From Actinomycetota bacterium (GTDB taxonomy: Bacteria > Desulfobacterota > Deferrimicrobia > Deferrimicrobiales > Deferrimicrobiaceae), in assembly GCA_016844415.1 (NCBI GenBank), contig JAENIX010000001.1:1-14233 (forward strand): a DNA stretch of 14,233 bases, given 5' to 3'. This document shows, piece by piece, positions 1-7,641 of the stretch (positions within the stretch are counted from its first letter, which is position 1; each line of letters starts with the position of its first letter). The position numbers were made by a program, and so were the translations under genes. The notes under the pieces were generated by a model. That model was not told the origin of the DNA. It did not search any database and saw nothing but the letters and a program-made list of their open reading frames with translations.

Positions 1-120
1 GTCGGGAAGGGCCTGAACCTGGGCTTCAAGCTCGTTGATCCGTCGAACGAGGGGGGCGATTCGCTCCAGCACGCGCTCGTTCTGCGTGCCGAACATTTTT
101 TTCAGGAGATTTCCGATCAT
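1..120 (-). CDS. secA: SecA, preprotein translocase ATPase, N-terminal fragment (gene continues past the left edge)
   Basis: Only the first 40 codons lie in the window, read right to left from an ATG at 120. The peptide begins MIGNLLKKMFGTQNER and continues with a helix rich in Arg, Ile and Glu. This is the typical SecA amino terminus (family pattern M-x-G-x-LLKK-x-FG-x-x-N-[ED]-R). SecA is the cytoplasmic motor that drives unfolded preproteins through SecYEG; its ATPase domains are outside the window. The gene upstream on the same strand is an M23 peptidase, an arrangement I recall from Geobacter-type genomes. A strong terminator and a structured element lie between the two, so secA probably has its own promoter. 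A weak -10-like TAGAAT on the minus strand (142–147) sits 22 bp before the start codon, and no strong Shine-Dalgarno is visible. The identification rests on a short but characteristic stretch. Confidence 0.88.
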   Translation of the reverse strand, partial: MIGNLLKKMFGTQNERVLERIAPLVRRINELEAQVQALPD

Positions 121-152: not shown

Positions 153-450
153 GCGCTCCATTCCGGATTACGGCAATATGGTATCGCCTGGTATCCGGAC
201 GCAGGGCTCGCGGGGGGTCTTCCCCGGAGCTACGCCTGCCCCCCGGTCGAGGTATTTGGTAGGGGGGCTCGCGACCTGCACCACCTCGGAGGTTAACTCC
301 GTCGTGGTGCACCGTAGAGTATTCATGGGCGGTTTCGCCCGCTCACTGCGGATTCCGCTCGACGCAATCTATCCCTCGCTCCATACGCCGCTCCGTGGAA
401 GCCCCCCGCTACGCCCTGCGTCCGCGCAGCCGAATTATTGAATGGAGCGC
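153..450. repeat. 298-bp highly structured element with inverted ends (MITE-like repeat or structured leader RNA)
   Basis: This is the only gene-free stretch over 300 bases. The ends are exact inverted copies of GCGCTCCATTC (153–163 and 440–450). Inside them a long interrupted stem forms by exact pairing of 197–207 with 413–423, 210–217 with 402–409, 219–223 with 397–401, and 225–230 with 390–395. With the ends this gives 41 base pairs. Between the arms are further hairpins: 238–244/262–268 (GCCCCCC/GGGGGGC), 277–284/304–311 with inner 288–291/297–300, 327–331/336–340, and 348–351/355–358. No convincing protein is encoded; the short open frames lack ribosome sites. No target-site duplication is evident next to the ends. 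It could be a non-autonomous mobile repeat or a multibranched RNA in the secA leader. I do not recognise it as a named family. Confidence 0.7.
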
Positions 451-507: not shown

Positions 508-1407
508 TCAGTTGAGGAAGCGGACCGGGTTCACCGGAAGGCCGTTCACGTGGACTTCGTAGTGAAGATGGGATCCCGTGGTCCGGCCGGTTTTCCCCAC
601 CGTGCCGATGGAGTCTCCCGTTTGCACGATGTCGCCCACGGCCACCCGCCGCTCCCCAAGATGCGCATACAGCGTCCGGTATCCGTATCCATGATCCAGG
701 ACGACGACGTTTCCGAACAGCGACTCGTAACCGCTACGCACCGCTTTACCGGCGGCGGCCGCCTTCACCGGTGCGCCCTGCCTGGCTATGATGTCCATCC
801 CGTGATGAAACACCTTGGTATCCGTGAAGGGGGAGGTTCTGACCCCGAAACCGGATGACAGAATCCCCCGCACCGGCCATATGGCCGGAGCGCTCTCAAG
901 GACTATCCGCCGGCCATCCAATTCCTCGCAGACGGCTTCAAGGTCCTTGACATCCACCAGTACATCCTTTTTCAGCTGCTCGAAACGCAGGTCCAGGAGA
1001 CGGTCGAGGCGGCTTAGCGCGCCGGCTTCCTGGGTTTCCATCCCTCCGATGCCGGAGGATTTGTCCCGCTTCCTGGCAGCCCCGGGGCGCAACGACTCGT
1101 TTATTCGAACCAGGGACCGAACCCGGGCGTCCACGGCCCGGAGGCGTTCGACCTCCGTCTCAAGGCTTTCGAACTTCGAGTGGAGGTTGTACAGGGTGAG
1201 GTCCTGCTCGCTCACGCGCTGCCGCAGGACGCTAAGGTCTCCGAGATTCGAGAGATTCTCGCGGTAATCATAGAGAAAATGCGTAAATGCGATAAACAGG
1301 AGGGCAAATGTAGCGACGGCGGCAACGAAGCCCTTCCGTCCTATGCGGAACTCCCGGGCACGACCCCCGTAGCCGATCCGCAGTGTAAAGTCGTGCTCTG
1401 CGCGCAC
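508..1407 (-). CDS. M23 family peptidoglycan metallopeptidase, membrane-anchored with coiled coil
   Basis: Predicted 299-residue envelope protein. A short basic cytoplasmic N-terminus is followed by one membrane segment (about residues 27–46), a coiled-coil region (about 50–105 and 125–170), and a C-terminal LytM/M23 domain (about 175–299). Zinc ligands are visible in the HxGxD motif (HHGMD, about 201–205) and in HLH (280–282). The lysostaphin-type fold signature GFGVRTSPF precedes them. Such proteins either cleave peptide crosslinks in peptidoglycan or regulate amidases; since the ligands are present, enzymatic activity is plausible. I chose GTG at 1407 because a purine-rich AAAGGGG lies about 7 bases upstream; a TTG one codon earlier (1410) is possible. 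A consensus TTGACA promoter lies upstream and a strong intrinsic terminator downstream, so it is probably transcribed alone. It sits upstream of secA. Confidence 0.93.
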   Translation of the reverse strand: MRAEHDFTLRIGYGGRAREFRIGRKGFVAAVATFALLFIAFTHFLYDYRENLSNLGDLSVLRQRVSEQDLTLYNLHSKFESLETEVERLRAVDARVRSLVRINESLRPGAARKRDKSSGIGGMETQEAGALSRLDRLLDLRFEQLKKDVLVDVKDLEAVCEELDGRRIVLESAPAIWPVRGILSSGFGVRTSPFTDTKVFHHGMDIIARQGAPVKAAAAGKAVRSGYESLFGNVVVLDHGYGYRTLYAHLGERRVAVGDIVQTGDSIGTVGKTGRTTGSHLHYEVHVNGLPVNPVRFLN

Positions 1408-1444
1408 CAATCCCCCCCTTTGAATGTAAACGAAACAGAGGAAG

Positions 1445-5801: not shown

Positions 5802-6662
5802 CTACCTCCCCCGCAACCGGGGATCCACGGCGTCGCGGATCCCTTCGCCGAGCAGGTTGTACCCGAGCACGGTGAGAAGGATCGCCAGCCCCGGGTAGAC
5901 GGATAGCCACCAGGCGAACTCGATGTTGTCCTTCCCCGCGGTCAGGATGTTCCCCCACGACGGCGTCGGCGGCTGCACGCCGATCCCCAGGAAGGAGAGC
6001 GCCGACTCCGTGAGGATCGCCCCGGCCACTCCCAGCGTCGCGGCGACGAGGACGGGCGCCAGCGTGTTGGGCAGGATGTGCCGGAAGATGATCCGGGCGT
6101 CGCCCGCCCCCTGCGCGCGTGCCGCCGCCACGAAGTCGCGTTCCTTTAGCGACAGTGTCTCCGCGCGGACCAGCCGCGACACGCCCATCCATCCCGTGAC
6201 GCCGATGACTATCATGATGATGTAGATGGATGGCTCGAGAAAGGCTATCACCGCCAGGATGAGGAAAAACGTGGGAAAACAGAGCATGATGTCGACGAAG
6301 CGCATGAGGACGGCGTCCGCCAGGCCGCCGTAGAACCCCGAAAAAAGCCCTACCAGGAGGCCGATGCAGGTCGCGATCCCCACCGCCACGAATCCCACCT
6401 TGAGCGAGATGCGGGCCCCGTACGCCATCCTCGCCAGGACATCCCGCCCCAGCTCGTCGGTCCCCAGGGGATGCCCCGCGGAGGGCGGCTGGAGAACCTT
6501 GAGGACGTCTATCCGGTTCGGATCGTGTCCGGAAAAGACCTGCGGAACGGCTGAGAGGATGAAAAAGAAAAGGACCACCGCTCCGCCGGCGACCGCCAGC
6601 CGGTTCCGGGCCAGCCGCCGCAGGAAGTCGATGAACATGGAGTGCGCTCCGCCCCCCGCCAT
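5802..6662 (-). CDS. oppC: Peptide ABC transporter permease, OppC/DppC type
   Basis: A 286-residue inner-membrane permease. After a basic N-terminus come a first membrane helix (about 21–42) and a periplasmic segment with the family hallmark HPLGTDELGRDVLAR (about 64–78). The BPD_transp_1 core of about five helices follows, with the EAA loop (ERDFVAAARAQGA, about 174–186) that docks onto the ATPases, then TESALSFLGIG (218–228) and a final PRLRGR. It works as a heterodimer with OppB. I chose the ATG at 6662, 4 bp after the oppB stop. An ATG at 6638 (residue 9, MFIDFLRR) has a better-spaced GGAG and is a real alternative. The frame is open to 6710, but that would overlap oppB by 44 bp and adds a non-conserved, Arg-rich start. 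Confidence 0.94.
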   Translation of the reverse strand: MAGGGAHSMFIDFLRRLARNRLAVAGGAVVLFFFILSAVPQVFSGHDPNRIDVLKVLQPPSAGHPLGTDELGRDVLARMAYGARISLKVGFVAVGIATCIGLLVGLFSGFYGGLADAVLMRFVDIMLCFPTFFLILAVIAFLEPSIYIIMIVIGVTGWMGVSRLVRAETLSLKERDFVAAARAQGAGDARIIFRHILPNTLAPVLVAATLGVAGAILTESALSFLGIGVQPPTPSWGNILTAGKDNIEFAWWLSVYPGLAILLTVLGYNLLGEGIRDAVDPRLRGR

Positions 6663-6666
6663 CGCG

Positions 6667-7641
6667 TCATCCCGCCCGGATGCGCGGGTCGGCCAGCGCG
6701 TAACCGACATCCGCCAGGAGGTTGCCGATCAGCGTCAGGAAAGCGCCGATCACCAGGATTCCCATTATGAGAGGGACGTCGCGGGACATCACCCCCTGGT
6801 AGAAGAGCTGCCCCATCCCCGGGATGGCGAAGATAGTCTCGAAGATGACCGCCCCGCCGAGCAGGTCAGGCACGGAGAGCCCAAGTATCGTGATGACGGG
6901 GAGCAGGGCGTTCCGCATCGCGTGCCGGAACACCACCTGCCGCTCGACGAGTCCCTTTGCCTTCGCGGCGGCTATGTAATCCTGCCGTATCACCTCCAGC
7001 ATGTTGGAGCGCATGTAGCGCGACATCCCCGCCAGCCCGCCGAACCCGGCCAGAAGGACCGGCAGGACCAGGTGCCTCGCCCGGTCCCACGCCTTTCCCG
7101 CGAGGGAGAGCGAGTCGTGCTCCAGCGAGACCAGCCCCGAGATGGGAAGCCAGCCCAGCTTCACTCCGAACAGGATCATGAGGAGCAGGGCGAGCCAGAA
7201 CGTGGGGACGGCGAAACCGGTGAAGACGGTCACCGTCGAGATCCGGTCGAACCATGAGTCCTTCCGGACCGCCGAGTAGATCCCCAGCGGGATGGCGACA
7301 AGAAAGATCAGTCCCATGGAAAGGATGTTGATCGTGAGAGTGACCGGGATCCTCTCCCTGATCTTCTCGGAAACCTGACGCCCGTCTGGGGCGAAGCTCT
7401 CGCCGAAGTCGAGCGTCGCCATCCGCCCCAGCCATCGCCCGTACTGCACGTGGATGGGCTGATCGAGGCCGTAGTAACGCACCATCCGCTCCCGATACTC
7501 CGCCGTGGCCTTGGGGTTCAGGTCGGCGGCGACGCTGATCGGCCCCCCGGGGGCCATGTGTATGGCGAGGAACGACAGCAGGCTGATGCCGACGAGGAGC
7601 GGAATCGTCAGGAGCAGTCGTCGGCCGATGTACCGGAGCAT
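6667..7641 (-). CDS. oppB: Peptide ABC transporter permease, OppB/DppB type
   Basis: A 324-residue inner-membrane permease. The N-terminus ([16 protein letters not shown]) and the following [11 protein letters not shown] motif are hallmarks of OppB/DppB. A periplasmic region (about 35–98) contains [15 protein letters not shown] and LDFGESF. The transport core then has five or so helices and the EAA loop [13 protein letters not shown] (219–231), which contacts an ATPase. The C-terminus has the typical [14 protein letters not shown] segment (267–280) and ends DPRIRAG. It forms the pore with OppC. It starts 10 bp after the stop of the binding-protein gene with only a weak CGGGG ribosome site, so expression probably depends on operon translation. 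All expected domains are present and the length is normal for the family. Confidence 0.95.

Follow-up and report, generated by a model that had tools for sequence, protein, structure and literature searches.

Positions 153–450 of the window (the whole stretch of 14,233 nucleotides that was analyzed) very probably represent a non-autonomous, MITE-like repeat that landed between an M23 peptidase gene and secA, and that came from a subfamily carrying two inner modules, B and A, which spread as a composite. A MITE-like element was one of two readings offered by the original prediction, and it is now backed by dispersed copies, terminal inverted repeats and one empty orthologous site, and perhaps by equal 3-bp flanks at nine of 19 elements. 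In the proposed course of events, a MITE-like repeat, built of an inner hairpin between terminal inverted repeats, would have inserted between the two genes, the outer element presumably being moved by a transposase acting in trans. The inner hairpin of its subfamily would have taken up two palindromic repeats, B (57 bp) and A (33 bp), which may move as DNA units rather than being copied by recombination or template switching; the composite would then have multiplied, and interiors would later have been lost between short direct repeats in the related genome G003.

The case bears on how repeats of 20–60 bp multiply in bacterial genomes. A single locus holds several nested size classes here, and related drafts give filled and empty sites, even in an enzyme of the citric acid cycle, at which insertion junctions and protein consequences are directly readable. 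The genomes are drafts, including that of the organism itself (G000; 1.5 Mb in 286 contigs, 75.7% complete) and G001 (61% complete).

Fold, copies and outer ends of the element

The outer ends of the element pair with each other (GCGCTCCATTC at 153–163 with GAATGGAGCGC at 440–450), and the exact 11-bp inverted ends, the inner arms and the hairpins described in the original prediction were all recovered at their places in the minimum-energy fold, the 7-bp G/C stem lying inside module A and the 8-bp stem inside module B (Table 1). Folded as RNA, the segment reached −167.5 kcal/mol, compared with −121.7 ± 4.9 kcal/mol in 200 dinucleotide shuffles (z = −9.4, none of the 200 as low); the reverse strand gave z = −8.3, and DNA folding parameters z = −7.4. 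The fold was exceptional in this comparison with shuffled sequence, a kind of comparison that had been named as a possible refutation. Likewise, the statement that no family is recognized agreed with Rfam, which had no match at gathering thresholds in the window and none at E ≤ 1 in 100–520. What had been described as one fold is, as a history, at least three repeats that differ in age, stacked on one another; judging from the alignments, the unequal arms are mostly the product of inserted modules and divergence, rather than of one designed fold. A strong fold before a gene can consist of piled-up insertions instead of a regulatory RNA.

Table 1. Features at the left end of the window, with the nested repeats of the element.
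Feature	Position	Strand	Remarks
secA, 5′ end	1..120	minus	start codon 118–120; only the first 40 codons inside the window; these 40 residues are conserved in orthologues
Left terminal inverted repeat, degenerate copy of GTGCTYCAYTTCRTAAATACGG	153..173	+	aligns with C103, a complete copy, at its left end
Core hairpin repeat (GGAC...GTCC), interrupted by modules A and B	197..423	+	arms about 197–223 and 398–423; copies in G000 and relatives, covariation
Module A, 33-bp G/C hairpin repeat, CCTGCCCCCC...GGGGGG	235..267	+	sits between GCTACG and (C/T)TCGCGACC
Module B, 57-bp palindromic repeat, TGCACCAC...GGGCGGT	277..333	+	sits between GCGACC and TTCGCCC
Right terminal inverted repeat, degenerate	430..450	-	first 11 bases complementary to 153–163; differs from the family terminal repeat at 7 positions
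M23 peptidase gene	508..1410	minus	Pfam Peptidase_M23; lies upstream of the element, reading towards secA

The placement in front of secA was borne out by the start codon, the identity of the gene being given by its L053 orthologue, a full SecA (Pfam). A terminator-like hairpin followed by a T run, recognized by eye at about 456–482, was assigned to the M23 gene. The element had been said to have no coding potential; it shows no sign of a gene, but an 87-aa open reading frame does cross it (178–441, plus strand). A phage or plasmid origin was rejected, as neither collection matched the element at E 1e-5.

The dispersed copies expected of a mobile element were found by a sequence search: positions 140–465 gave 43 matching pieces in G000, different copies covering different parts of the query. 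Related copies were present in at least 14 of 40 genomes (own genome included), a lower bound given that at most 18 candidates per genome were scored; all 14 fell among the 24 genomes of the same family, and none among the 16 others. From the matches listed, 33 core copies were extracted in which modules A and B are both missing and query positions 57–95 are joined via about nine bases to 195–287. The window copy minus A and B was 88% identical to the complete copy C103 over 190 bp, with 1-bp gaps only. Module B had 11 matches in G000, one in G001 and none in 28 other genomes. For module A, all 10 strict matches came from G000 and none from the 29 others searched, and a looser pattern gave eight in G000, two in G001 and none in 22 others (two matches elsewhere for the reversed control); a degenerate unit in the gspI-type gene of G002 was missed by these pattern searches. 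Within the searches made, A and B appear nearly confined to the species of G000, while the core is family-wide.

In C20, C31 and C38, module A is located identically, and so is the left junction of B; the composite of core, A and B therefore probably spread as a unit. Elsewhere, module B occupies a second core site in C139 and C128, and in C270 and C260 it lies outside the core. In contig C260 of G000 (6573–6754; L187), two tandem copies of B lie in the 5′ part of a frame that is SahH-like by eye, at a contig end, which is either a disrupted gene or an assembly artefact. At another intergenic place, where G000 carries a truncated core with A (L186, C245), the G001 counterpart is a different repeat, about 310 bp long (L307, C193).

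The terminal repeat of the family is GTGCTYCAYTTCRTAAATACGG, to which the left end of the window copy has nine mismatches position for position, owing to a 1-base shift. Allowing up to three mismatches, this repeat was found in 17 of 24 genomes, two of the 17 being outside the family, with one match in all for the reversed control; the matches listed included 25 inward pairs with spans of 74–292 bp. The nine elements with equal 3-bp flanks, out of 19 paired elements read, had TAA or TTA in eight cases. Among the 10 elements with unequal flanks are C103 (TAA/TTA) and also, as judged by eye, the window copy (TTA vs. CAG), its own duplication not being seen. Such TAA/TTA flanks might point to an IS5-type or PIF/Harbinger-like origin. 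The complete copy C103 is bounded by GTGCTCCACTTCGTAAATACGG and CCGTATTTATGAAGTGAAGCAC and measures 212 bp end to end; it is present in G000 and absent at the orthologous place in G003. This empty site is the one clean locus for the outer element, C31 and C245 having been dropped from the comparison as their loci were not clean.

Interiors differ among elements with the same ends: that of the window copy is one type, and a second, CATTCGAGCGCC...GACGCTCTCGGTGC, occurs in several genera. Another repeat family, with loci L191 and L185 (C66 and C139 of G000), had many strong matches at many places in G001–G003, and one element bounded by the same terminal repeats, in C139, has part of its interior made up of this family. 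A transposase gene for the outer element was searched for within DDE_Tnp_1 alone, in 17 genomes. No autonomous partner was found at 15 loci of this family, where the terminal repeat yielded just two single matches with six mismatches, and no pair of terminal repeats at transposase spacing was seen by eye among the matches listed.

The M23–secA gap and stem covariation

The other reading in the original prediction, a structured RNA in the 5′ leader of secA, here taken as one regulating that gene, was evaluated in the orthologous M23–secA gaps of relatives. The position between the M23 terminator and secA, the strong fold, the covariation of stems among copies and the occupation of the same place in G003 would all suit such an RNA. 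However, just one of eight orthologous gaps, that of L049 (= G003), matched the element at E below 0.01, and its copy is collapsed: both outer arms and the first core bases are kept, and 216 bp are lost between two CGC. The other seven gaps had no match below E 0.035. Since the element is missing from most orthologous gaps, secA does not need it, and with copies at many other places and no Rfam match besides, a leader RNA regulating secA is barely credible and was rejected in favour of the inserted MITE-like repeat. No role in secA expression is indicated, yet a strong leader hairpin could still have a side effect.

The possibility that the G003 gap represents the pre-insertion state was rejected as well, as both arms and the first core bases are kept and the join lies at a CGC shared by both edges, which is deletion-like. 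A second interior loss, as at secA, was observed at L304 (G003:C40), which keeps both core arms without the interior of its G000 counterpart L193 (G000:C255). In the gap of L050, a 14-bp piece resembles the element's left end (E 0.12), possibly the remnant of an earlier, since-lost copy. In the gap of L054, a lone piece resembling the terminal repeat, AGTGCTTCATTTCATGGAT, was noticed by eye before the M23 gene.

Covariation was evaluated in 30 of the 33 extracted core copies, aligned after omission, before the count, of L037 and L042 (divergent) and of L132 (doubled 5′ arm); the latter, together with L045 (G003:C131), corresponds to a core copy with a tandemly doubled 5′ arm. For a 25-pair stem that was drawn by us from the same alignment used for the test, 92% of the cells were standard pairs, and both sides had changed in 33 cells, compared with 8.6 ± 2.4 in shuffles (0 of 500) and 2–19 in slid controls. 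Nine pairs had changes on both sides, a number also reached by one slid control, and the covariation term in the consensus fold of core copies was small (−0.91 kcal/mol). Covarying stems, originally expected of a structured RNA, were thus found among dispersed copies, but as these copies lie in many different places, they speak for a maintained palindrome and not for a secA regulator. Moreover, template switching is another way in which the two arms of a palindrome can become alike, so that covariation is no proof of an RNA function.

Module A in protein genes

A BLAST search with tandem A (E below 1e-5) revealed 12 clear places in G000 and two in G001. Four of the 12 were in core copies (C20, C31, C38, C245), and the remaining eight inside protein genes or at their ends. 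The aconitase (Pfam) of G000 has 11 extra residues (PLQTSSTGGQA) with respect to G001, G003 and G002, within a stretch that has no aligned counterpart in the IRP1 structure (2b3x; query 418 to 476); read on the opposite strand, its DNA runs from CGGAACG through 33 bp to ACTGCC, where G001 has CGGAACG directly followed by ATTGCC. The C-terminus of the cytochrome oxidase COX1 (Pfam) in G000 is longer than those of G003 and G002 by exactly 33 bp, or 11 residues, although all of them finish in AGDG. These two genes therefore carry A in frame, internally or C-terminally, and their relatives are without it. An aminotransferase C-terminus (Aminotran_3; BioA by eye) carries A in frame too, and was not counted as an exact insert, G001 and G003 being too different there.

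The gspI-type prepilin (N_methyl) of G000 is 66 bp longer than the G001 gene, and A was also found in the leaders of gspH- and gspJ-type genes and in two prepilins on C181 (N_methyl); the gsp letters were assigned by eye from order and similarity, beside a T2SSG gene (Pfam). Translation of these prepilins could begin inside A (TTG before GTAGGGGGG), in which case the inserted peptide would be only an open frame. Since A measures 33 bp in the intergenic element too, frame-keeping is a property of its length; five of its six frames are open, and all six in the GGAG variant.

Module A may be a self-contained mobile hairpin of 33 bp (11 codons), which would enter repeats and genes exactly, with no fixed target duplication and no recognized transposase, and would have moved since the species split from its sisters. 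This reading is tentative, and it is also conceivable that A and B have no enzyme of their own and spread where short G/C-rich homologies allow template switching or recombination. The YGCC beside the A inserts in the aconitase and oxidase targets does resemble the first bases of the unit, and the tandem 33-bp units, the two loop types on one stem and the G003 deletions between short direct repeats are of the kind expected from such processes, yet the core and gspI sites lack this homology, and 12 clear places for one 33-bp unit weigh against it. That a Y1 tyrosine transposase (RAYT) moves A and B as REP-like repeats is unlikely. REPs would be matched in size, palindromy, occurrence inside genes, and arrangement in tandem and in both orientations, and also by the GTAG that precedes the 3′ arm in several copies of A. 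That GTAG, however, lies in the loop, and neither unit has a GTAG or CGTC tag at an end, A being bounded by CCTG and GGGGGG, and B by TGCA and GGGCGGT. In addition, Y1_Tnp (PF01797) had no match in G000, G001 or G003, yet 16 of the 24 searched genomes have one. Membership in the tagged REP/RAYT group was rejected on the end tag and on PF01797 in the carriers, which are incomplete drafts; as the gene may be missed in G000 and G001, REP-like movement was kept as a rival.

Even less likely, to the point of being very improbable, is that A is kept for a useful peptide or hairpin in prepilin leaders and that its intergenic presence is secondary. Of the 12 clear places in G000, prepilin genes do account for five, the GG/F cleavage context is preserved by the end of the unit in G000 (gspI- and gspH-type genes) and in G001 (gspJ), and the gspI gene of G002 has a degenerate unit. 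Nevertheless, both strands of A are read, in differing frames, and give different peptides; the gspI genes of G001 and G003 are without the unit, and A also stands in aconitase and an oxidase.

Resemblance to known repeats

None of the literature titles listed concerned repeats of this lineage, the Deferrimicrobia. Bacterial MITEs, according to PMC10969869, are short and palindromic, with terminal inverted repeats, short target duplications, an intergenic location and no transposase gene. The outer element is alike in its ends, size, palindromy, intergenic site and lack of a transposase gene, and the equal 3-bp flanks of some copies may correspond to target duplications, but its interiors differ between same-ended elements, and no partner transposase was found in the searches made. 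Regarding the layering, the pneumococcal BOX, RUP and SPRITE repeats, as outlined in PMC3049150, nest within one another, and boxB is optional or repeated within fixed outer modules; the optional inner module and the nesting are alike here, by architecture and not by sequence. Unlike in BOX, module A also stands alone in genes, and neither the sequence nor the host is known to be related.

REPs that carry GTAG or CGTC tags, according to PMC3733652, are palindromes of 20–40 bp in tandem or in pairs, some of them in coding regions or at ORF ends; A is similar in size, palindromy and gene locations, but has no end tag, and its carriers have no Y1 transposase match. The palindromic elements of Rickettsia lie in frame inside unrelated protein genes, according to PMC10969869 and PMC3733652. 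Module A does likewise, but with 33 bp versus about 150 bp and in a different phylum, the likeness being one of description. By analogy with these systems, nested repeats and palindromes in genes would be of an already known kind, and the 33-bp unit may be the more novel part.

Cyanobacterial small dispersed repeats insert into larger repeats. They are named as very small and perhaps mobile in PMC3116915 and PMC2884548, and modules A and B are comparable to them in small size, being set beside them by description, not by sequence.
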